From positions 1 through 35,267 of the IMG/VR virus record IMGVR_UViG_3300025151_000136: a stretch of DNA of 35,267 nucleotides; one strand, written 5' to 3'. The translations under genes were made by a program, and so were the position numbers. Positions 2,013-22,690 of this stretch are shown here, one piece after another. The notes beneath the pieces were generated by a model. The model ran no database searches and had not been told where the DNA came from. It worked only from the letters and a program-made list of their open reading frames with translations. The stretch's first letter is position 1, and every line of letters starts with the position of its first letter. The stretch is from a virus.

Positions 2013-2213
2013 ATGAAATTGCGAATAATGAATGAAACAGGCCACACTGAACTAGAAGTATCTAGTGCAGAGATGATTGAACAGATAGCAGAACACCCAA
2101 CTCATTGGGTCTATGTTAACGGTGACATGGTAAGCAGAGAAAACATAACCAACATAGATTGGTCAACTGTTGACAATGTTAACCTAGTACCTGCAATCGT
2201 CGGCGGTTGTTAA
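2013..2213 (+). CDS. Ubiquitin-like / ThiS-MoaD-like beta-grasp protein ending in Gly-Gly-Cys (66 aa)
   Basis: The 66 residues match the size of ThiS and archaeal SAMP/MoaD proteins. The order is strand (MKLRIMNETG), strand (TELEVSS), helix (AEMIEQIAEHP), strand (THWVYVNGDMV), a turn, and a final strand NVNLVPAIVGGC. The end VPAIVGG closely resembles the C-terminal hydrophobic strand plus Gly-Gly of MoaD/ThiS/SAMP, where the last Gly is adenylated by an E1-like enzyme. One extra Cys follows the GG, so a C-terminal trim would expose it. ATG 2013 is chosen (AAGGAAG upstream); a TTG 13 codons earlier adds only a lysine-rich stretch. Partners in the window are the E1-like gene at 6728 and the JAMM peptidase at 8651. 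It could be a protein modifier, a sulfur carrier or both. Confidence 0.62.
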   Translation: MKLRIMNETGHTELEVSSAEMIEQIAEHPTHWVYVNGDMVSRENITNIDWSTVDNVNLVPAIVGGC

Positions 2214-2245
2214 GTCTAAAATAAATAGTCGGATTAACAAGAAAC

Positions 2246-2346
2246 CCCACTAGTTTTCTCTAGTGGGAGGTAACTACTATATGTTGTACTACACACCATA
2301 GTAGTCCTAGCATCGGGGCAGATGCCAAGAAGGTGAGAAGCCTTCT
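2246..2346 (+). ncRNA. Stem-loop-rich leader before the RNR gene; possible cis-regulatory RNA
   Basis: The 159-base gap 2214-2372 holds four successive hairpins. H1 pairs CCCACTAG (2246-2253) with CTAGTGGG (2260-2267). H2 pairs ACTACTAT (2273-2280) with ATAGTAGT (2298-2305). H3 pairs GCATC (2310-2314) with GATGC (2321-2325). H4 pairs AGAAGG (2328-2333) with CCTTCT (2341-2346). A TATA-like AAAATAAAT lies near 2218-2226, about 25 bases before H1, so a transcript could start at the first stem. I looked for B12-box and tRNA signatures and saw none, so it matches no RNA class I know. Control of the B12-dependent RNR or a stable ncRNA are possibilities. Confidence 0.45.
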
Positions 2347-2360
2347 AAAATCACTTATAA

Positions 2361-2375
2361 GGAGAGATAAAATTG
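2361..2375 (+). promoter_or_regulatory. Ribosome-binding site deciding a TTG start for RNR
   Basis: GGAGAG at 2361-2366 lies 6 bases before a TTG at 2373, which is taken as the RNR start. The nearest in-frame ATG choices are further from the site. The leader hairpins end at 2346, leaving this site unpaired in the drawn structure. Confidence 0.5.
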
Positions 2376-4274
2376 AAATTAGGAAATGATGTATTAGCAG
2401 AAGTCGTAGCGAATATGAAGTATGCTAAATGGTTAGAAGCAGAACAACGAAAAGAAACATGGGATGAGGTTTGTGATAGAAATCGAAACATGCATCTCAA
2501 ACATATGAGGCAAACATTAGAGTTAGATTCAGAAACCTATTCTACTATTGCAACTAGGTTATATGATGTATATGATAACTTTGTTAAAACTCAAAAGATA
2601 CTACCGTCAATGCGTTCAATGCAGTTTGGTGGTAAACCAATAGAAGTATCACCAAATAGAATATACAATTGTGCATACTTACCAATAGATAGCACTCTAT
2701 CTTTTAGTGAGTCAATGTTCTTATTGTTAGGTGGAACAGGTGTTGGTTTCTCAGTACAGAAACATCACATTGACAAGTTACCTGTTATTAGAAAACCTAC
2801 TACTGAAAGAACTTATAGATATAAAGTAGCAGACACAATTGAAGGTTGGGCTGAAGCGATTAGAGTTCTTTTTGATAGTTATACTGGTAAGAGAACTACA
2901 ATGCCTAGATTCGACTATTCAGACATAAGACCTTTAGGTGCTAGACTCAAAACAACAGGTGGAAATGCACCCGGCCCTGAACCATTAAAGAAGTGTATTG
3001 TTATCATTCAAGGAATGCTTAACGAGATGGAAGAAGGTCATAAGATTAAACCAATTGAAGCACATGATATGATGTGTTATATTGCTGATACTGTATTAGC
3101 AGGTGGCATTCGTCGTTCTGCTTTAATCAGTTTATTTAGTGCTGATGATAGAGAGATGATTAATGCTAAAGCAGGTAACTTCGCAGCAGAAGGTAATGCT
3201 CAAAGATATAGAGCAAACAATTCAGCAGTTGTATTAAGACATAGAGTTACTGAAGACTTCTTCAAAGAACTAATGTCTAATGTTGCTAATAGTCATTCAG
3301 GAGAACCCGCAGTTTATCTGACTAATGACAAAGATTGGGGTACAAATCCTTGTGTAGAGATTGGATTACGCCCCTATCAATTCTGCAACTTGTGTGAAGT
3401 AAATGTATCTAATATTGAAAGTAAGGAAGACTTACTACAACGAGTAGAAGCAGCAACATTCTTGGGTACAATGCAAGCAACTTATACTGACTTCCACTAT
3501 CTTAGAGAAGTTTGGAGAAGAAACACTGAGAAAGATGCTCTTATTGGAATAGGGATGACAGGTATTGCTAGTAATAAAGTAGATAATTCTTGGTATGCTG
3601 ATGCTGCAAACTTAGTTAAGACAACTAATGCTACTTACGCTAAGATGCTTGGTATTAACAAAGCAGCAAGAACAACTTGTGTCAAACCCGCAGGAACTAC
3701 TAGTTGTGTTTTAGGTACTTCTAGTGGTATTCATGCATGGTATGGTAAGTACTACATTAGGTCAGTTCGTGTAGGTAAGAATGAAGCAATCTATCCTTAC
3801 TTACTAGATAAACTTCCTGATTTAATTGAAGATGAAATAGGTAAGGAAGATGAGAGTGCAGTGCTATCTATACCACAAACTATCCCATACGATTATGTGA
3901 CAACAAGAGCAGATGAAACTGCTTTGGATATGTTAGAACGTGTGAAGTTTGTTTCTGAGAATTGGGTTAAAACTGGTTATCGTAAAGGTAACAATGGACA
4001 CAATGTTTCAGCAACAGTTTATGTTAAACCAACAGAATGGGAACAAGTGATTGAGTGGTTGTGGGATAATAGACATTCATACAATGGTATGTCTTTCTTA
4101 CCTTATGATGGTGGCGAGTATGACCAAGCCCCATTTCAGGAGATAGATGAAGAAAGATATAATGAAATGGTCAAACAACTACATCCAATAGATTTGACCG
4201 AAGTAATAGAATTGGAGGATACCACCAACCTTCAAGGCGAAATCGCTTGTGCAGGTGGAGCGTGTGAGATATAG
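2373..4274 (+). CDS. nrdJ: Class II (adenosylcobalamin-dependent) ribonucleotide reductase
   Basis: Reduces ribonucleotides to deoxyribonucleotides through a cobalamin-generated thiyl radical, supplying dNTPs for viral DNA. C100 (IYNCAYLP) and the FCNLCEV cysteines near 338-341 fit the active-site disulfide pair. GGTGVGFSVQ (120-129) is the conserved finger region. NPCVE at 325-329 matches the Asn-Cys-Glu radical site. PAGTTSCVLGTSSGIH (439-454) is the phosphate-binding segment. The C-terminal CAGGAC (C626, C631) is the CxxxxC shuttle pair of monomeric class II enzymes. At 633 aa it is shorter than the roughly 740-aa Lactobacillus type, and no ATP-cone is visible. No second subunit or activase lies nearby, also fitting class II. 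The start is a TTG. Confidence 0.9.
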   Translation: MKLGNDVLAEVVANMKYAKWLEAEQRKETWDEVCDRNRNMHLKHMRQTLELDSETYSTIATRLYDVYDNFVKTQKILPSMRSMQFGGKPIEVSPNRIYNCAYLPIDSTLSFSESMFLLLGGTGVGFSVQKHHIDKLPVIRKPTTERTYRYKVADTIEGWAEAIRVLFDSYTGKRTTMPRFDYSDIRPLGARLKTTGGNAPGPEPLKKCIVIIQGMLNEMEEGHKIKPIEAHDMMCYIADTVLAGGIRRSALISLFSADDREMINAKAGNFAAEGNAQRYRANNSAVVLRHRVTEDFFKELMSNVANSHSGEPAVYLTNDKDWGTNPCVEIGLRPYQFCNLCEVNVSNIESKEDLLQRVEAATFLGTMQATYTDFHYLREVWRRNTEKDALIGIGMTGIASNKVDNSWYADAANLVKTTNATYAKMLGINKAARTTCVKPAGTTSCVLGTSSGIHAWYGKYYIRSVRVGKNEAIYPYLLDKLPDLIEDEIGKEDESAVLSIPQTIPYDYVTTRADETALDMLERVKFVSENWVKTGYRKGNNGHNVSATVYVKPTEWEQVIEWLWDNRHSYNGMSFLPYDGGEYDQAPFQEIDEERYNEMVKQLHPIDLTEVIELEDTTNLQGEIACAGGACEI

Positions 4275-4604
4275 ATGCTAATTAAAGAGAAGGATTTCCG
4301 CACTTTTGAGTGGGTCATAAAAGAAAGTATAGTATATCCTAGAAGGAGATACTTTGACCAAACTTGGATGATGTATAAGCAGGGAAAGACTTCGTATAGA
4401 GCATTATATCACAACATGCGTTATCTTGTTAAAGGGGGGTTTAGTTCTTTCGAAACTATGGAAGAACTAGCCTCCCAAATAGAAAGAGATGCATGGTATC
4501 TTCATAATTATGGAGATGCTAAATATTGGGAAAATAATAAAAGGAATGATAAAAATGGTAAAAGTAAAAATAACAATCCCCTCAGTAGGGGACAATCAGA
4601 ATAG
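4275..4604 (+). CDS. Hypothetical protein, 109 aa
   Basis: Starts on the base after the RNR stop codon. It is rich in aromatic and basic residues (SIVYPRRRYFDQTWMMYKQGK) and looks helical up to about residue 88. The last 20 residues are low-complexity Asn/Lys where it overlaps the next gene by 50 bases. No family recognised; immediate coupling to RNR suggests co-expression only. Confidence 0.55.
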   Translation: MLIKEKDFRTFEWVIKESIVYPRRRYFDQTWMMYKQGKTSYRALYHNMRYLVKGGFSSFETMEELASQIERDAWYLHNYGDAKYWENNKRNDKNGKSKNNNPLSRGQSE

Positions 4605-5856
4605 TTTCATAACAAGTAGTTTTTTGTTTAGGTCTTCAAAGAAGGGTTTGTTTCCAAGAATATGGAGCATTAATCCTAGAACTAAACAATACTATACTAA
4701 TAAGCAAACAATGAATACTTTTGGTGAATTACAGTTTCAGGTGTCTAGACCAACTCTCTCTAATCTTAGAGGAGAACAAGACCCTGTTCTAACAAACACC
4801 GCTTCATTGCTTACTAATATTCTATTGACTAAGGTTCAGAACACTAACTTTCTAAACACTATCACCTTTAGATATAAAGATGGTGAAAGTATCGTAGTGT
4901 ATGGTCGTAAAGGAACTGGACACCATATTGATGGTGTTAAAATCAGTAAGAAAGATTTGGTAACTACTTTAGGGAAAATAATAATCAGAGCATCTTTTGT
5001 TCGTAGTGTTGACACTATGGATGACTATATTGACAGGGTTATTCATTTTCCTCCTAATGTTCTTCATGCTATTGAAAACAGGAGTAACTATTCGTTCTAC
5101 AACGAGGGTAGGAAACAGGAAGTTCTAATCAATACTAGAGTTATTAGTGAGAATGAATGTGCTTTAGAGATTTCAGAAGGTGTTTGGGGTGCAATTACTT
5201 TGAGGGACTTGAACGTATTCATTAACACGTTTAGATTCAATCAGGCTAAGTCTAAAACTTGGTATAGAGCAACACCTGCTAAGTTATGGGAACTACTAAT
5301 GGGAAACCCACCAACTTCATCTGAGGAGAAGTTGTGTATTGCATGGTTAATGCAAAACAGAAAGCAGAACATGGTTGAAGATAGAGCAACTAAGTTATTG
5401 TTCGATATGGATAATGAGTATCCAAATATCAGTTTAGTTCAATTCAGGAATCCATTGAACAAGGCTCTATTCGTTAGAGGTAAAGTTGCTGATTGGGTTG
5501 TTGTTGATGAAAGAAAGGGTATGAAACTTGGACATCAGAATGTAAATACATATATGATTGGTCGTAAAGGAGGTGGTAAATCTTGGAAGGGTCATTCACT
5601 TACTGGCCCAATTTGTATTGATAATATACATAAGAACTCAAGCATTGGCGACCAACTAACTGCTAGAGCATTAGCCTTAATGAATGATGTTAACTCTTCA
5701 AATAGTATCTATACTATTAGAGATTATGTCAAAGAAAGACTAGCATTAGACCCTAATGAGATTGAAACCGAATGCCGTTTAGATACAACACAGTTGAACT
5801 CTTGGACTCAAGAGAAAGAGGATAAATATAAGCAATGGAAAAAGGTGAATGCATGA
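4555..5856 (+). CDS. Hypothetical protein with a late P-loop-like motif (433 aa)
   Basis: The start at ATG 4555 (AGGAATGATAAAA upstream, MVKVKITIP strand) is preferred over the ATG at 4489, which would deepen the overlap with the previous gene. The first 200 residues look beta-rich. Near residue 346 is IGRKGGGKSW, which fits GxxxxGKS, but it lies in the last quarter, no Walker B follows, and context suggests a glycine/lysine loop rather than an NTPase. The C-terminal 40 residues are charged helix. I cannot assign a function. The gene overlaps the TFB start by ATGA. Confidence 0.6.
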   Translation: MVKVKITIPSVGDNQNSFITSSFLFRSSKKGLFPRIWSINPRTKQYYTNKQTMNTFGELQFQVSRPTLSNLRGEQDPVLTNTASLLTNILLTKVQNTNFLNTITFRYKDGESIVVYGRKGTGHHIDGVKISKKDLVTTLGKIIIRASFVRSVDTMDDYIDRVIHFPPNVLHAIENRSNYSFYNEGRKQEVLINTRVISENECALEISEGVWGAITLRDLNVFINTFRFNQAKSKTWYRATPAKLWELLMGNPPTSSEEKLCIAWLMQNRKQNMVEDRATKLLFDMDNEYPNISLVQFRNPLNKALFVRGKVADWVVVDERKGMKLGHQNVNTYMIGRKGGGKSWKGHSLTGPICIDNIHKNSSIGDQLTARALALMNDVNSSNSIYTIRDYVKERLALDPNEIETECRLDTTQLNSWTQEKEDKYKQWKKVNA

Positions 5857-6731
5857 AGTGTGTAGAGTGTGAATCAACCGATTCTACGTTTGATGATAGA
5901 TTAGGTTATCACATATGTTCTGATTGTGGTCTTGTACTTAATGTCGAAATATTCGAAGAAACATCTAGTGCAACAGAATCAGATTCTAAATACGGAATAG
6001 GTAGTACAATACGATTTGGTGATGGAAGTAAAACGTCTTCAAAATATAACCTAAGACTTAACCACATTAAGACTGAGACAAAGAGTAAGTTTTGGACAGA
6101 AGGTGATATAGCAACACATAATACTTGTATGATGTTTTTATCTCCATATAAACCATACAAACTTTCTCTCAGAAGAGAAGTAGAACACTACTATCAGGAA
6201 CTTCAACGTAATAGAGTACTGGTAGGTTTACCAACAGAAGTTAGGGCAGCAGGTTTAGCATACTTCATCTTAAAGGATGAAAGTATTTTTATCTCGCTCA
6301 AGTCTTTGCAGAAAACATCAGGAGTTCATAGAAGTAAGATAATGAGGGCTTCTAAAAAAATAGCCAAGTTCTATCGTAAGTCCCATATCTTTGGTGTTAG
6401 AGATGTACATGATGTAGTAACAGTATGTTTGGATAAGTCAGGAGCAGATATTAAAGATAGAAACCCTATCTTTGCTTTCGTTGATTATGTTTCTAATTAC
6501 TATGAAACAGTCAATGTCAGGGTTGGTAATGGTGAAATTGCAGGAGCAGTTTACATTGCATGTAAGATGTTAGATTACCCTGTACTACAAAGAGAACTAG
6601 CGTCAACAGTTAACATCAGTGAAGTAACACTGAGAATACACATAAGAAAGATATGTGAATTAATACAGATAGAAAGAACTATCTTGAATAAATATAATGT
6701 AAATGAAATAATAGGAGGAATAAGAATATGA
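5853..6731 (+). CDS. tfb: Transcription initiation factor B (TFB/TFIIB homologue)
   Basis: Recruits RNA polymerase to TBP-bound promoters in archaea. The zinc ribbon has C3, C6, C22 and C25 (MKCVECEST, HICSDCGLV). Residues 40-75 hold the reader/linker region with a typical GSTIRFGDGSK. Two cyclin-like repeats follow: about 90-175 (RVLVGLPTEVRAAGLAYFI) and about 195-290 (GEIAGAVYIACKM, then HTH-like VNISEVTLRIHIRKICELI). The length (292 aa) is close to cellular TFB. ATG 5853 is chosen over 5835 because of GGTGAA spacing and ATGA overlap. A viral TFB probably redirects host polymerase to viral promoters, together with the PC4-like protein at 10961. Confidence 0.88.
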   Translation: MKCVECESTDSTFDDRLGYHICSDCGLVLNVEIFEETSSATESDSKYGIGSTIRFGDGSKTSSKYNLRLNHIKTETKSKFWTEGDIATHNTCMMFLSPYKPYKLSLRREVEHYYQELQRNRVLVGLPTEVRAAGLAYFILKDESIFISLKSLQKTSGVHRSKIMRASKKIAKFYRKSHIFGVRDVHDVVTVCLDKSGADIKDRNPIFAFVDYVSNYYETVNVRVGNGEIAGAVYIACKMLDYPVLQRELASTVNISEVTLRIHIRKICELIQIERTILNKYNVNEIIGGIRI

Positions 6732-7318
6732 GAAAAGTAATGATAATAGGAGCAGGTGGAATTGGGAGTTATTTAGTTGACTTCTTATCTAGGATTGGTA
6801 TCTATGATATAACGGTGTTTGATGATGATAAGTTAGAAGAGAAGAATCTGACATATCAAAACTTTATGCCTGATATGGTAGACCATACTAAGGTTAATGC
6901 TCTCAATAATAGATTGAAGGTTAACGGGTTGAAGCCTATAAACCCTCAACCGTATCAAGTATTAGTAGAGAAGCAATTGAAAGGTTATGACCTAGTAGTT
7001 TGTTGTGCTGATAACTTAGCAGTAAGACGTTTACTATATCGTCAAGGCTATGGTGATGATGCAAAGATAGACTGGTTAGACCTTAGAGCGCAAGGGCGTA
7101 ATGCTGCATTGATTTCCTACAAGGTTAACGAGAATCTTGTTGATGATTTGTTAGCAGGTGCAGAAGGTTCTTTCTCTTGTCAAGGAGGAGAATGGGATGG
7201 TAGCCCTGAAGATGTTAACTGTATGCAAATCGCAATTGCAGGTATTGCAGTACAGTGGATTCAAAGATGGTGGCAATCCCCTGATTACGTTGCAGATAAG
7301 ATGGTGATAAACGTATGA
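6728..7318 (+). CDS. E1-like adenylating enzyme (ThiF/MoeB/UbaA superfamily), minimal form
   Basis: Activates the C-terminal glycine of a ubiquitin-like protein with ATP. A Rossmann P-loop GAGGIGS lies at 8-14, with acidic FDDDKLEEKNL at 31-41. N40 and Q44 stand in the family NLxRQ motif, whose Arg is replaced (NLTYQ). K55 follows. CCADN (92-96) with R100 matches the DxxDNxxxR Mg-ATP site. In PEDVNCMQIAIAGIAVQWI, C165 sits where ThiF-type enzymes carry their reactive Cys before the final helix. At 196 aa it is only an adenylation domain, with no rhodanese or UFD domain. GGAGG precedes ATG 6728, which overlaps the TFB stop. The natural substrate in this window is the GGC-ending protein at 2013. 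Confidence 0.8.
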   Translation: MRKVMIIGAGGIGSYLVDFLSRIGIYDITVFDDDKLEEKNLTYQNFMPDMVDHTKVNALNNRLKVNGLKPINPQPYQVLVEKQLKGYDLVVCCADNLAVRRLLYRQGYGDDAKIDWLDLRAQGRNAALISYKVNENLVDDLLAGAEGSFSCQGGEWDGSPEDVNCMQIAIAGIAVQWIQRWWQSPDYVADKMVINV

Positions 7319-7608
7319 AATGTAGTTTATGTAATAGGGAAATTGAGCAAAGGAAAGACCACACTGGAAGAGTGTATTGGAGCGAAGGAAACAACGCCGC
7401 ACCATACGAAGGTAGATGTTGTGATGTTTGCGACTGTCTCGTTGTTATCCCTACAAGATTGGGATTCGATACAGAACAAGCAGTTGGTTTCGGTAGATTT
7501 TTACTTAGAGAACGTCAAATTAAGTTTAAGTTAATTGAAGAAAATGAAGTAGTTACTCCTGAAATGGTTATGGAGGCTTTACAATCAGGATTAGGTGAAG
7601 AGGAATGA
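7315..7608 (+). CDS. Small phage-type zinc protein (97 aa)
   Basis: The order is CSLC (3-6), NNAAPYEGRCCDVCDC near 27-42, then VVIPTRL. This CxxC ... N-A-x-P ... RCCDxC ... VVIPxRL layout is a recurrent family of small phage proteins of unknown role that surely bind zinc. It overlaps the E1-like gene by ATGA. The position next to E1 might suggest an E3-like or adaptor function, but the family is widespread in phages without E1, so I do not claim it. Confidence 0.65.
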   Translation: MKCSLCNREIEQRKDHTGRVYWSEGNNAAPYEGRCCDVCDCLVVIPTRLGFDTEQAVGFGRFLLRERQIKFKLIEENEVVTPEMVMEALQSGLGEEE

Positions 7609-7835
7609 GAGCAAGTTCAAAAGTACATGTTGAATATGAAGTCTTGAAATATCTAATGGATAAGATTGACTTAACTGAATTAGAAGAGAAGATGTGTCCA
7701 TCAGGCGATAAGACGGCTGAAAAGAGATTTTTAGATGGTGCTGATTCTGTTTCTTCTCTTGTTAACAATATGATTGTTAGGAGATTACACAGGTTGCCGA
7801 AGAAACATCCTGCATATAAGGAGAAATCAGAATGA
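7605..7835 (+). CDS. Hypothetical helical protein, 76 aa
   Basis: Charged and mostly helical (YEVLKYLMDKIDLTELEEKM), with a basic C-terminus (RRLHRLPKKHPAYKEK). No family recognised. ATGA overlaps at both ends place it in the tightly coupled string between the E1-like and JAMM genes. Confidence 0.5.
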   Translation: MRASSKVHVEYEVLKYLMDKIDLTELEEKMCPSGDKTAEKRFLDGADSVSSLVNNMIVRRLHRLPKKHPAYKEKSE

Positions 7836-7984
7836 GTAAGTTAGCACAGTTAGTAGGAGAGATAGAAGCAACACTTACACAAGAGAAGAAGACATACGAT
7901 GATGGTATGGAAACTGATGATGTCGTAAAGGGTTGGATTGAAGCACTTGAGTATGTGCTAAGACAGATAGAGGGATTGTATTGA
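7832..7984 (+). CDS. Hypothetical 50-aa protein
   Basis: A short ORF fills the gap exactly: ATG overlaps the stop before it (ATGA) and its TGA overlaps the TTG of the next gene. The product is an acidic amphipathic helix (LAQLVGEIEATLTQEKK ... VKGWIEALEYVLRQIEG). AAGGAG precedes it at 7817-7822. Confidence 0.55.
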   Translation: MSKLAQLVGEIEATLTQEKKTYDDGMETDDVVKGWIEALEYVLRQIEGLY

Positions 7985-8259
7985 AATATATCTGCTTTAC
8001 AATATTAGATAAAACTCTTTGTGGTAAAGAGAATGAATCTGTTCCTGAACATTTAGCAGACAGTAGAAGATTCTGCAATGATTGTGTTCAAGTTATGTGG
8101 AGAGAACAATATAGAAGAAGTGTATCTCTCCCTTTGCAAAAAGGAATTGACATTAAGAAAGTAGAAAAAGAAATGAAAGAAGTAGAGGTAACAGTTGAAG
8201 AACCTCGATTAGTCACACCAAGACGAATCAAAAGTCTTCGACATTATTTGAAGGTGTAA
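7981..8259 (+). CDS. Small zinc-binding protein (92 aa), TTG start
   Basis: The N-terminal half carries C5, C14, H24 and CNDC near 32-35, a spacing common in small phage zinc proteins. The second half is a Lys/Glu helix and a basic tail (PRRIKSLRHYLKV) that could touch nucleic acid. The TTG start is inferred from the TTGA overlap; no upstream ATG is in frame. Confidence 0.55.
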   Translation: MKYICFTILDKTLCGKENESVPEHLADSRRFCNDCVQVMWREQYRRSVSLPLQKGIDIKKVEKEMKEVEVTVEEPRLVTPRRIKSLRHYLKV

Positions 8260-8261
8260 AA

Positions 8262-8501
8262 ATGAGTGACGAAGAGAATATAGAAGATATAGATGAAGAG
8301 ATGATTGATGAAGTTATGAATGTAATTTCAACAGATGGTTATTATCAACAAGCAGAGATAGTCAAAGTAACATGTCCTGTTTGTGGTGAAGAGTTCTTAG
8401 GAACAAAAAGACATGCAGGAGCGTTCATTGCAGGTCATCGTGAATATCATGAGTTTATCAACAGTCAAGATATGATTATAGATAATATGGGTGGTATCTG
8501 A
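8262..8501 (+). CDS. Single zinc-finger protein ending in Gly-Gly-Ile (79 aa)
   Basis: An acidic helical N-terminus (1-37) is followed by a C2H2-like finger, CPVCGEEF then HREYH (about residues 41-65). The last residues are NMGGI, giving a Gly-Gly one residue from the C-terminus, like the GGC of the beta-grasp protein at 2013. The fold is a zinc finger, not beta-grasp, so this is probably chance. Confidence 0.55.
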   Translation: MSDEENIEDIDEEMIDEVMNVISTDGYYQQAEIVKVTCPVCGEEFLGTKRHAGAFIAGHREYHEFINSQDMIIDNMGGI

Positions 8502-8648
8502 ATGGGAAAGATGGGAAGAAAGTTTCAAGAAATGAGAGATTCTTATGAACAAGCATTACTTGATGGAACAATAAATGAAAGTCTAACGTTTTCTGATTGG
8601 ATTCAATTAGAGAAAGCGTCAGCAAAAATAAAAAAAGAGGAGGAATAA
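8502..8648 (+). CDS. Hypothetical 48-aa protein
   Basis: ATG 8502 directly follows the previous stop. The product is a basic/acidic helix (GRKFQEMRDSYEQALLDG), no family recognised. Its end contains the AGGAGG that serves the following JAMM gene. Confidence 0.5.
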   Translation: MGKMGRKFQEMRDSYEQALLDGTINESLTFSDWIQLEKASAKIKKEEE

Positions 8649-8650
8649 AA

Positions 8651-9157
8651 GTGAAAGAAGAAGAAATAAAGAATGAAGAAGCAATGAAGGAGTTTGATTG
8701 GAAACAACACATCAGAGATGTGCATAATGATATGGCTGAAGATATACAATATCTTTACCCAAACAATTCAACAGAAGCCTTCCTAACTGCAATATGGAAA
8801 ATGTCAATAGACGTATTAGAAGGAATGGAAATACAGGTTATTGTAGATAACAAAGATGATTTGTACATTAGTAGTGGTACACCTGCCTTTGTATCCTTTG
8901 AAGGACATGAAGATGAATTAGTAAATGGTAAACCTATGCAAATACCTATCAAGTCTTGGATACACACACATCCTTTCGGTCATGCTTACTTTAGCAGTAC
9001 AGATTGGAAAACAATTAACACATGGAAACCTATACTAAAGTCTGCTATTGTACTTGGTGACAGTCAGTATTTAGCATATGACCCTGAAACCATACTAGCA
9101 AAGAAAGTTTTCTATGGTCTACTGGCAGAAGATAAATCTAAGGGGGAAGAGGAATGA
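8651..9157 (+). CDS. JAMM/MPN-domain metalloprotease (Rpn11/HvJAMM/Mec+-like)
   Basis: A zinc metallopeptidase that in known members removes ubiquitin-like proteins from targets or trims C-terminal tails after Gly-Gly. The full signature H-x-H-x7-S-x2-D is present: H105, H107, S115, D118 in IHTHPFGHAYFSSTD. The catalytic Glu expected about 45 residues upstream is probably E60 (LEGMEIQVIV). The order helix, strand, loop, HTHP, helix and VLGDSQYLAYD strand fits a compact MPN core. GTG 8651 is chosen because AGGAGG sits 7 bases upstream; a more distant TTG at 8597 lies inside the previous gene. The probable substrate or precursor is the GGC protein at 2013. The C-terminus is a short acidic tail. 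Confidence 0.82.
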   Translation: MKEEEIKNEEAMKEFDWKQHIRDVHNDMAEDIQYLYPNNSTEAFLTAIWKMSIDVLEGMEIQVIVDNKDDLYISSGTPAFVSFEGHEDELVNGKPMQIPIKSWIHTHPFGHAYFSSTDWKTINTWKPILKSAIVLGDSQYLAYDPETILAKKVFYGLLAEDKSKGEEE

Positions 9158-19861: not shown

Positions 19862-21565
19862 ATGATAATATGTAAAACAGAAAATGGAATAGGATTAAGG
19901 TGGAGAGAAGGAGATGAGATACAAAGTAAGATTGTGTCTCACTCCGACTTTCAACCTTACATGTATGTACTTAGCGACCTTATTCCTGTCGGAGCGACTG
20001 ATTTTAGTTTTAAGTGTAAAGACACTCATGGTTCTTTTAACATCAAAGTAAACTTTACCCCAAGTGGTGGTGAAGTTAGCCTTGAAAAAAGACCATTACA
20101 TAAAGTAACTTGGACACCTAATAATCCTAAATATTCTAAAGATGTTAGGATTGCTTTAGAGGCTAATAACATTAAAACGTTTGAAGCAGATGTACCTTAT
20201 CATTACAGATATGCAGTTGATGAAATAAAAGAAATACCTGAGCAAAACTTGCGTAGATGGTATTGGGATATGGAATGGCAACAAGGTGGTAGGTATGATG
20301 AGTATATTACTTGTATTGTCATCTATGATAATTATGATGATGAATATCATGTCTTCGCTTGGTATCCTGAAGAGGGTAAAAATATAGTATTGAAAGACAA
20401 TGATAATTTTATCCTACATAGATATAATAGTGAACACAATATGCTTACAGGTTTCTTAGCATTCGCTATGGATAAAGAACCTGATATGCTTATCTCTTGG
20501 TTCGGATGGAAGTTCGATATACCAAAGTTGTTTACTAGAATGGTTCATCATAATATTGACCCAAGACTACTATCACCTTTTGATGAGATAACTGGTATTG
20601 GTTGGAAAAGAAATAAGCCTACTATTTGGAAGTCTAGAGTAGAAGGTTACTCTCCTGTAACTCAACCAATCAAGGGAATGATTACAGTAGCATTAGATTT
20701 GATTTTTGAAAGACAATGGAATGATGCTCAACGTGGAACATTACCTTCTCTTTCATTAGATTACGTTTCTGAGAATGTACTTGGTGATGTCAAATTAGTT
20801 AGCGAAAAGTTTCCTGACAAGAATGAGTTTTTCAGAAGAGCATGGTTAGAAGATGCAGATACATATCTTGAATATGCTTTCAAGGATGTAGAGTTAATCA
20901 AAAGAATTGATGAAGAAAACCACTGTATTGATGCAGTTCTTTCTTTACAGAGACTTTTGAAAGCACCGTTTGATGCATGTTTCTATGCTAGTAACATGGG
21001 TGGTATATATTTCATGCGTAATGCTTGGTGGAAAGCCCCTACTGGAGAGAAAGGTGAACGTAAGGAGTATGAGGGGGCAATGATATACAATCCCCTCAGT
21101 GAAGGTACAAATGGCCTTCATCGGAACGTTGCTGCTTTTGATTTTGCAGGGCTATATCCTTCAATGATAATTTCACGGAATATATCTTGGGAAACTATTT
21201 CGGAAGAACCAACAGACTTTGCAGTTAACTTAGCAATACCTAGAGATTTTAGTGAAGTCAAAAGAGAAGAGATGATGTATTTCAAAACAGATGAGTTAGG
21301 TTTACTACCTAAAGCAGTACTTGACTTGAAAGAGTTAAGAGACGAATATAAAAAGAAGATGAAACAGGCAACATCCAAAGATGAATATGCCAAGTGGAAT
21401 AACAATCAGTTAGCAGTAAAACGGCTTTCTGCGTCTTTCTACGGGATAATTGCGTATCAAGGATTTGGTTGGGCTAATGTTGATTTGGCTGCTAGTATAA
21501 CTGCTAGTGCTAGAGAAGCAATAAGGGCTGCCGCGTTTAAAGTGAGGGATATGAATGCCAATTAA
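19862..21565 (+). CDS. polB: Family B DNA polymerase, N-terminal part (exonuclease plus palm motifs A and B)
   Basis: The main replicative polymerase, first of two pieces. N-terminal domain 1-130; 3'-5' exonuclease with WDMEW (Exo I, D136/E138), GWKFDIPKL (Exo II, D219) and YAFKD (Exo III, Y338/D342). Motif A is DFAGLYPS (427-434); motif B is KRLSASFYG (520-528), where the usual Asn is Ala/Ser. The protein stops after KVRDMNAN, exactly where a normal PolB would continue into motif C. The downstream gene at 21773 carries motif C and the thumb. A 73-aa membrane-protein gene lies between. No sequence seems lost at the junction. Confidence 0.88.
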   Translation: MIICKTENGIGLRWREGDEIQSKIVSHSDFQPYMYVLSDLIPVGATDFSFKCKDTHGSFNIKVNFTPSGGEVSLEKRPLHKVTWTPNNPKYSKDVRIALEANNIKTFEADVPYHYRYAVDEIKEIPEQNLRRWYWDMEWQQGGRYDEYITCIVIYDNYDDEYHVFAWYPEEGKNIVLKDNDNFILHRYNSEHNMLTGFLAFAMDKEPDMLISWFGWKFDIPKLFTRMVHHNIDPRLLSPFDEITGIGWKRNKPTIWKSRVEGYSPVTQPIKGMITVALDLIFERQWNDAQRGTLPSLSLDYVSENVLGDVKLVSEKFPDKNEFFRRAWLEDADTYLEYAFKDVELIKRIDEENHCIDAVLSLQRLLKAPFDACFYASNMGGIYFMRNAWWKAPTGEKGERKEYEGAMIYNPLSEGTNGLHRNVAAFDFAGLYPSMIISRNISWETISEEPTDFAVNLAIPRDFSEVKREEMMYFKTDELGLLPKAVLDLKELRDEYKKKMKQATSKDEYAKWNNNQLAVKRLSASFYGIIAYQGFGWANVDLAASITASAREAIRAAAFKVRDMNAN

Positions 21566-21776
21566 AACCGCAAAGATAGATGTAGAACAACTACAAGAAG
21601 AAGTTGAAGAAATAAATAGAAAGATGATAGAAGAGTTTGCTCCATCTAGAACCGAAAAAATGATAATGAAAGCATATGTTTTACTTGATGATGTTTATGT
21701 TATTCTAAAGTATCTTGCAGTAGGTGTATTCTTCTATGGTTTAATATCTCTATTGCAGGATGTGAATATAATATGA
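21555..21776 (+). CDS. 73-aa single-pass membrane protein inserted between the two PolB genes
   Basis: Residues 8-27 are a charged helix (DVEQLQEEVEEINRKMIEEF). A hydrophobic segment VILKYLAVGVFFYGLISLL (about 49-67) predicts a membrane anchor. It overlaps the PolB N-part by 11 bases and the C-part by ATGA. No homing-endonuclease motif is seen. It may be an unrelated cargo, a remnant of the event that split PolB, or a membrane tether for the replisome. Confidence 0.6.
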   Translation: MPIKTAKIDVEQLQEEVEEINRKMIEEFAPSRTEKMIMKAYVLLDDVYVILKYLAVGVFFYGLISLLQDVNII

Positions 21777-22690
21777 AAGTAGTTTATGGACATACAGATT
21801 CTATCTACGTTAAGATGGAAGATGATAGTGTTGAGAAAGCACAACTAGTATTAGATGAGTTGAACGAACACGTTAGAGAAATATTTCCTAATGTTCTAGG
21901 TTTAGACGAACATCCTGTAACTCTTGAGTTTGAGAAGTTCTTCAAGACTCTAGGTGTAGGATGTAAGAAAAACAGAAACGCAGGGTTAATCTCATGGAAA
22001 GATGGTGAGTACCTAGATGATTTGGAGTTTACTATGACTGGTTTTACTGCAAAGAGAGTGGCAATAACTCCTCTAGCAAAGAAGATTCAGTTAGAAGTTT
22101 TAGATAGATGGGTAAAGGAAGAAACAGAAGAAGAGATAACTAACTACTTACACAATGAATACTATAATGTTGTCAATGGTAATATTGATATCTCAATGTT
22201 AGCACAACGTAGTAGATTTAGAGAAGAAAGATTCTTAGTGAAATGTAAGACTTGTATAAGAAACTTCAACAAACATACGAAGTATCATTTACATGAACTT
22301 GCTAATATTACAATAGGGAAAAAATACCCTTGTTGTAATAAACCTGAGTTCATAACTTTGAAAGGAAAAAGACCAACAATAGGTTCAGGCATTGAAGGTG
22401 TGTTATATCATAACACAAAGAATCCTGATAACATGATTGATGATTCATATCTGTATCTAAGAATTAGAGACATACATGATACTTACTTTCATCCGTTAAA
22501 CAGGAATGATGTCATACCTAACTATGTTTCTGCAATGACTCAAAAGGATTTACTTGAGTACACTCCTGATTACAACCATTATGCTAGTTCTATAATTAGC
22601 AAAGCAGAGCCTATTTACGAAGCAATGGGTTGGGATATATCACAAATCTACCGTGATAGGAAACAAAGCAGTATGGAGGATTGGTTTTGA
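21773..22690 (+). CDS. polB: Family B DNA polymerase, C-terminal part (motif C, thumb, PIP box)
   Basis: Begins MKVVYGHTDS, so motif C (YGHTDS, 5-10) lies at the very start. The first Asp of YGDTDS is His, the second, metal-binding Asp (D9) is kept. KKNRNAGL (65-72) is the downstream conserved region, usually KK(R/K)Y. Residues 158-188 contain CKTC and YPCC (C158, C161, C187, C188), a zinc-finger-like insertion unusual for PolB. The last residues QSSMEDWF (298-305) are a PIP box for PCNA. It presumably assembles with the product of 19862-21565. Confidence 0.85.
   Translation: MKVVYGHTDSIYVKMEDDSVEKAQLVLDELNEHVREIFPNVLGLDEHPVTLEFEKFFKTLGVGCKKNRNAGLISWKDGEYLDDLEFTMTGFTAKRVAITPLAKKIQLEVLDRWVKEETEEEITNYLHNEYYNVVNGNIDISMLAQRSRFREERFLVKCKTCIRNFNKHTKYHLHELANITIGKKYPCCNKPEFITLKGKRPTIGSGIEGVLYHNTKNPDNMIDDSYLYLRIRDIHDTYFHPLNRNDVIPNYVSAMTQKDLLEYTPDYNHYASSIISKAEPIYEAMGWDISQIYRDRKQSSMEDWF

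Follow-up and report, generated by a model that had tools for sequence, protein, structure and literature searches.

The three genes and their products

We examined a 35,267-base virus record (IMGVR_UViG_3300025151_000136, hereafter the window), a fragment of a larger genome, in which three genes on one strand appear to code for a ubiquitin-like protein (UBL), an E1-like adenylating enzyme and a JAMM metalloprotease (Table 1). A preliminary description of this DNA had proposed them as a system similar to archaeal SAMPylation, and all three open reading frames (ORFs) were confirmed at the positions and on the strand given there. Single-sequence scores of the UBL and JAMM were weak, so that relatives and structural models were needed to classify them. 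Scans of IMG/VR identified 163 stretches with a relative of the UBL, 283 with a relative of the E1 and 282 with a relative of the JAMM protein, and 80 loci of each were retained.

Table 1. Positions of the three genes and of two conserved neighbours in the window
Feature	Position	Strand	Evidence
UBL, predicted beta-grasp ubiquitin-like protein, 66 aa, end VGG-C	2013..2213	+	Pfam ThiS (below cut-off), AlphaFold2 model, VIA matches, Gly-Gly in 96/96
E1-like adenylating enzyme, ThiF domain, 196 aa	6728..7318	+	Pfam ThiF 1.1e-17; PRTRC_ThiF matches; conserved residues
JAMM/MPN+ metalloprotease (predicted), 168 aa, HTHx7SxxD and invariant upstream Glu	8651..9157	+	AMSH-LP profile, VIA match to PfJAMM1, Prok-JAB
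ORF415, universal neighbour, invariant Cys in GPICIDN..GDQ..R	4555..5856	+	94/94 regions; ATG at 4555
Viral TFB homologue, just upstream of E1	5835..6731	+	Pfam Zn_Ribbon_TF 1.9e-8; stop overlaps E1 start

The UBL gene begins with an ATG preceded by GGAAG, a Met start shared by its relatives, and its stop codon closes a product that terminates in AIVGGC. This product fell below the curated threshold of Pfam ThiS (E=0.0045, 17.9 bits versus a cut-off of 22.5), two of 17 members scanned weakly matched the SAMP1 family, and no match to PRTRC_C was found in NCBIfam. Its AlphaFold2 model (mean pLDDT 83) has the element order b-b-a-b-b-a-b, which is the beta-grasp order b-b-a-b-b-(a)-b of ThiS/MoaD/SAMP proteins. 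Ubiquitin and NEDD8 chains ranked top in Foldseek, where the highest TM was that of the sulfur carrier TtuB (0.63), and VIA-align placed MoaD first (Z 5.9), below which many entries tied, among them P. furiosus SAMP2 (5.3) and TtuB (5.1). These modest Z values gain weight from their agreement with the ThiS and SAMP1 sequence matches, and the 66-residue protein is predicted to be a ThiS/MoaD/SAMP-like beta-grasp protein, as had been anticipated.

Gly-Gly was present in all 96 UBL sequences, followed by 0–9 variable residues in 36 kinds of end (nothing, C, Y, F, Q, SL, NQ, CY, RF and others, up to SCTIDDDDY). The Gly-Gly-Cys terminus emphasized in the preliminary description was thus upheld with regard to Gly-Gly, but Cys turned out to be one of many variable tails, and a special role for it was ruled out by this diversity. 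Most UBLs have a tail of 1–2 residues, so that Gly-Gly is not terminal, as in precursor Ubls. An invariant Gly-Gly with a freely varying tail is the signature of a processed precursor, and this pattern fits the presence of a JAMM protease. In QbsE, the residues past Gly-Gly are removed by a JAB protein. A further precedent is provided by Caldiarchaeum, in which CsRpn11 cleaves the Ub precursor exactly past Gly-Gly and CsJAMM cleaves CsSAMP precursors (PMC6043591).

Assignment of the second gene to the adenylating enzymes was borne out by a strong match to Pfam ThiF (64.5 bits versus a cut-off of 28.1). The residues that characterize the E1/ThiF superfamily, including the glycine loop GxGGxG, D-x-D, N and Q of NLxxQ, Lys and DN, were present in all 96 sequences. 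The full set of invariant positions consists of the glycine loop, D32, D34, N40, Q44, K55, C92, C93, D95, N96, R100 and C151, the last of which lies within SxSCQ and is a candidate catalytic Cys. MoeB-type E1s canonically carry an N-terminal Arg-finger helix and the Arg of NLxRQ. The viral E1 has neither of these MoeB/UbaA-type features: it begins at the glycine loop, lacking the helix, and the Arg position is occupied by Tyr in 92 of 96 sequences.

The PRTRC_ThiF profile was matched by all 20 E1 members scanned (best E 4.9e-18), and the UbaA profile less well (best 4.9e-12). The window E1 scored 42.5 bits against the UbaA equivalog NF047750, whose cut-off is at least 450, and 50.2 bits against the PRTRC ThiF equivalog TIGR03736, whose cut-off is at least 144.75. 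In hhalign, the viral E1 and PRTRC ThiF aligned over 175 columns with a probability of 96.8, and the invariant SC of the former fell on the SC of the latter. By these profile comparisons, UbaA is a more distant match of the viral E1 than ThiF or the PRTRC ThiF of bacteria; the enzyme is related to PRTRC ThiF but scores under the cut-off of that family. The proposed likeness to the SAMP system holds for the fold and the set of parts, but the E1 departs from it, both in this placement and in lacking canonical E1 features.

When the E1 profile was used to scan a collection of genomes from 84,980 species, only three loci were detected, all with the same viral neighbours and all in bins of bacterial metagenome-assembled genomes (MAGs), and a cellular origin was rejected on this basis. 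Annotated phages contained only distant ThiF homologs. The E1 subfamily appears to be virus-specific as judged from these scans. Three contigs filed under bacterial MAGs (L237, L238 and L239; Altibacter, Maricaulis) contained ORF415, E1 and JAMM genes, L237 also having the UBL gene; these are viral contigs binned with bacteria.

The JAMM protein of the window contains HTHPFGHAYFSSTD, which corresponds to the complete HxHx7SxxD signature noted previously. The catalytic H, H, S and D occurred in 95 of 96 sequences and the upstream Glu in all 96, constituting the JAMM/MPN+ motif. Translation plausibly starts at GTG 8651, since a GAGGAGG site lies just upstream, and the ORF could also open at TTG 8597. 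The window protein matched Pfam Prok-JAB weakly (E=0.01), and 20 of 24 members matched this family; a sequence profile detected AMSH-LP (E=4.6e-6) and a Caldiarchaeum Rpn11-like protein. With an AlphaFold2 model (mean pLDDT 83), VIA returned P. furiosus JAMM1 as the best match (Z 9.2) and also AMSH, Cap3 and Rpn11, all JAMM/MPN proteins, and the related RadC, in line with an MPN fold. The model thus identifies a JAMM domain whose predicted structure is closest to the archaeal deSAMPylase PfJAMM1. A JAMM gene was kept in 20 of the 21 loci whose UBL already terminates in Gly-Gly, suggesting that the protease likely has a role beyond maturation, such as removal of the UBL from conjugates.

Conservation of the trio in related viruses

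The order UBL-E1-JAMM on one strand was found in all 95 distinct related loci that hold the three genes, and such uniformity argues that the trio did not arise by chance. Whole-record searches of 42 long viral records detected E1 and JAMM in 42 and the UBL in 41, the sole miss being a locus too near the contig start. These records had been picked via the trio itself, and a second set (n=35) was picked by DNA polymerase only. The UBL was present in 23 of these 35 records, all of which also had E1 and JAMM; in the other 12, the expected positions of the missing genes were at or past the contig ends, the least certain absence being that in G650, a 43.7-kb record without any of the trio. True absence of the UBL was also considered for L232, L148 and the polymerase-selected records, and proved to be apparent only, being traced to the ends of loci or contigs. 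Consistent with the co-occurrence expected from the preliminary description, no relative kept E1 and JAMM without a Gly-Gly partner where its contig extended far enough.

It had also been noted that the genes are not adjacent, which would weaken the case for a single pathway. This is correct for the UBL and E1 genes, but in 11 of the 95 loci the JAMM open frame starts −27 to +4 nt from the E1 gene, and this direct adjacency eases the doubt. Moreover, one clade keeps the trio although it lacks the gene for ribonucleotide reductase that otherwise lies between UBL and E1. Median identity was 0.59 for the UBL and 0.55 for the E1, compared with 0.23 (23%) for the TFB homolog, which occurs in all 94 regions.

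These data bear on the idea that the three genes, though all core genes of one syntenic early region, have no functional tie: the E1-like protein would be a small-molecule adenylyltransferase, the UBL a structural beta-grasp protein and the JAMM protein a general protease. Several genes separate UBL from E1 and synteny extends over the entire early regions of these viruses, as this idea would have it; however, an invariant C-terminal Gly-Gly serves no evident purpose other than Ubl chemistry, and neither the adjacency of E1 and JAMM nor the persistence of the trio where the reductase gene is missing is in its favour. We regard it as very improbable. The trio represents core genes of a large group of tailed viruses that probably infect marine archaea.

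Pfam matches in the window included an archaeal-type TFB, an RFC small subunit, DNA ligase, a split family B DNA polymerase and a PD-(D/E)XK nuclease. The coding strand switches at ~29.6 kb, with long repetitive ORFs beyond, and long related records are mostly 75–103 kb. Magrovirales (Aoguangviridae), viruses associated with marine Poseidoniales, are described as tailed viruses with genomes of 90–110 kb that encode PolB, a clamp loader, a DNA ligase and TFB and have their genes in two clusters of opposite orientation (PMC10768690). The Pfam matches, strand switch and record lengths of the window and its relatives agree with this description, and by gene content the window is a piece of a magrovirus-like genome of the order Magrovirales. 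Its hosts are thought to be marine Poseidoniales archaea, as taken from the literature on this order.

The polymerase of the window is encoded by two ORFs separated by an ORF of 73 aa (19862–22690), whereas in the most distant relatives (G030, G035, G040 and G041) the open frame is ~800 aa. A record of 184.7 kb (L072, IMGVR_UViG_3300021958_000021) contained two differing copies each of UBL, E1, JAMM and PolB located ~90 kb apart, and is probably two related genomes joined into one. The E1, UBL and JAMM proteins of the window are 99–100% identical to their counterparts in IMGVR_UViG_3300026258_000007.

Neighbouring genes and the proposed pathway

Besides TFB, ORF415 was the one other gene found in all 94 regions. 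Its only invariant Cys (94/94) is within G-P-I-C-I-D-N, followed by GDQ and R. The canonical E2 active site is G-x-I-C-L-D. No family match to ORF415 was found in Pfam, PDB or PHROG, no invariant His is close to the invariant Cys in the 94 regions, and hhalign revealed no detectable match to PRTRC_B. Comparison with E2 profiles gave a non-significant value of less than 1%, but a control comparison of two known E2 groups, PRTRC_B and the Cap2 E2, likewise gave only 1.2%, so that this result speaks neither for nor against an E2 identity. The conserved motif makes ORF415 a possible E2-like protein or substrate partner and puts in doubt the lack of an E2 stated in the preliminary description. Between E1 and JAMM, the window also encodes small Cys/His-rich, zinc-finger-like proteins (7315–7608, 7981–8259 and 8262–8501), which are patchy among relatives. 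Many proteins (those ending at 7608, 9157 and 9733 in the window, and JAMM relatives) have EEE or GEE as their last residues, with the next start codon overlapping or adjoining. At these ends, GAGGAATGA would act as Shine-Dalgarno sequence plus start codon, which suggests translational coupling.

With somewhat more confidence than doubt, we favour the view that the trio is a virus-encoded, reversible ubiquitin-like modification system. This view builds on the genes, the predicted UBL and JAMM folds, the E1 family, the conservation of catalytic and terminal residues, and the way the genes co-occur in syntenic order. The UBL would be made with a short tail beyond Gly-Gly, which JAMM would trim, and the exposed Gly carboxylate would then be adenylated by E1 and probably moved to Cys151 as a thioester. 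From there the UBL may be transferred to protein targets, either directly or via ORF415 or a host factor, and JAMM could later take it off. Natural candidates for these targets would be proteins of replication and transcription, whether of the virus or of its host, as the trio sits with TFB and replication genes.

Most of the same steps would serve a sulfur carrier, in which JAMM trims the UBL, E1 adenylates it and a UBL thiocarboxylate, made by addition of sulfur, is used for tRNA thiolation, for a cofactor, for cysteine or to modify viral nucleotides. QbsE/QbsD and CysO/Mec+ are systems of this type. The UBL is most like ThiS/MoaD/TtuB, the Gly-Gly-Cys end encoded in the window recalls the CysO-cysteine adduct, and host enzymes could provide the sulfur. 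However, the Cys after Gly-Gly varies among relatives, no recognised sulfur-handling gene was present among the conserved neighbours, and no rhodanese was detected in 45 long viral records compared with 13 of 14 control genomes that were positive (other sulfurtransferases were not searched for). Operons of ThiS/MoaD, E1 and JAB are already known, and in those of the sulfur-carrier type the E1 is often fused to rhodanese, whereas in conjugation-type neighbourhoods it never is (PMC1779556). Sulfur transfer therefore seems unlikely, and the lack of rhodanese, which speaks against a sulfur relay of the classical kind, favours reversible modification over both this possibility and counter-defence.

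Counter-defence would mean that the trio mainly disrupts a host SAMP-type or other Ubl defence: JAMM would strip conjugates of the host, and the UBL and E1 would act as decoy or competitor. Archaeal Borg elements have many deSAMPylase-like JAMMs proposed to act against host SAMP tagging (PMC12660748), and both the retention of JAMM alongside Gly-Gly-ending UBLs and the atypical active-site residues of the E1 would be compatible with such a role. On the other hand, stripping requires neither a viral UBL nor a viral E1, and these two rank with the best-conserved proteins of the region, unlike fast-evolving counter-defence genes. We consider this role quite improbable.

Several observations also weigh against reversible modification. 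No recognised E2 or E3 was found, and UBL and E1 are ~4.5 kb apart. Because the trio belongs to an early region that is itself syntenic, synteny on its own only weakly supports one pathway. The missing Arg-finger helix and the Tyr in place of Arg could mean that the adenylation chemistry is altered. Distance correlations were small once shared ancestry was removed (UBL-E1 0.12, UBL-JAMM 0.04), and were dropped as support for co-evolution because of this weak signal. It is conceivable, though on balance doubtful, that an entire order of archaeal viruses has a complete and self-sufficient Ubl conjugation system as core genes, with ORF415 as a new E2- or E3-like family and a minimal, altered E1, which tags proteins during infection.

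Comparison with known systems

Prokaryotic Ubl conjugation has so far been linked to host housekeeping, anti-phage defence and bacterial mobile elements. If reversible modification is the function of the trio, Ubl conjugation would belong to the core functions of a large group of marine archaeal viruses. Three small proteins, one of them a minimal E1 that lacks the customary Arg residues, would then suffice to test a viral Ubl pathway, and the system would bear on the movement of Ubl systems between viruses and cells. We found no paper joining magroviruses and ubiquitin in the literature searched, and the magrovirus texts checked mention none of the trio genes; the founding paper (Philosof 2017) was outside this search, and an earlier gene-level annotation there is possible.

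SAMPylation (SAMP1/2, UbaA, HvJAMM1/PfJAMM1) likewise involves a small beta-grasp modifier with Gly-Gly, one E1, one JAMM and no recognised E2 or E3, and the PfSAMP2-PfJAMM1 complex was among the structural matches of both the viral UBL and the viral JAMM. In contrast, the viral trio is virus-encoded, most of its UBLs carry the short tail past Gly-Gly, and its E1 is shorter, lacks the canonical Arg residues and scores lower with UbaA than with ThiF or PRTRC_ThiF.

PRTRC cassettes, which we take to be operon type 6d of Iyer et al. 2006, also have stand-alone UBL, E1 and JAB genes, and their E1 aligns with the viral one nearly over its full length, including the late SC motif. Type 6d comprises Ubl, E1, JAB and a divergent E2-like protein in bacteria (Iyer et al. 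2006, PMC1779556), and the viral system also has an extra universal protein bearing an invariant Cys. However, neither the UBL and PRTRC_C nor ORF415 and PRTRC_B match detectably, and archaeal viruses are involved instead of bacterial elements. The siderophore and thioquinolobactin operons (PdtH or QbsE, E1-rhodanese, JAB) share the combination of Ubl, E1 and JAB, but the viral E1 has no rhodanese and none occurs in the 45 viral records.

Among viruses, crAss001 (Crassvirales) is also tailed and carries JAB and ThiF genes next to each other in its replication region, the gene for the Prok-JAB protein Gp77 immediately preceding that for the ThiF protein Gp76 (3256–5654). Its ThiF differs in having 383 aa with an N-terminal extension and ~26% identity over the E1 core, and no UBL was identified there. 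SAMPylation, PRTRC-type cassettes and, among viruses, this JAB-ThiF pair of crAss001 are thus the closest described systems.

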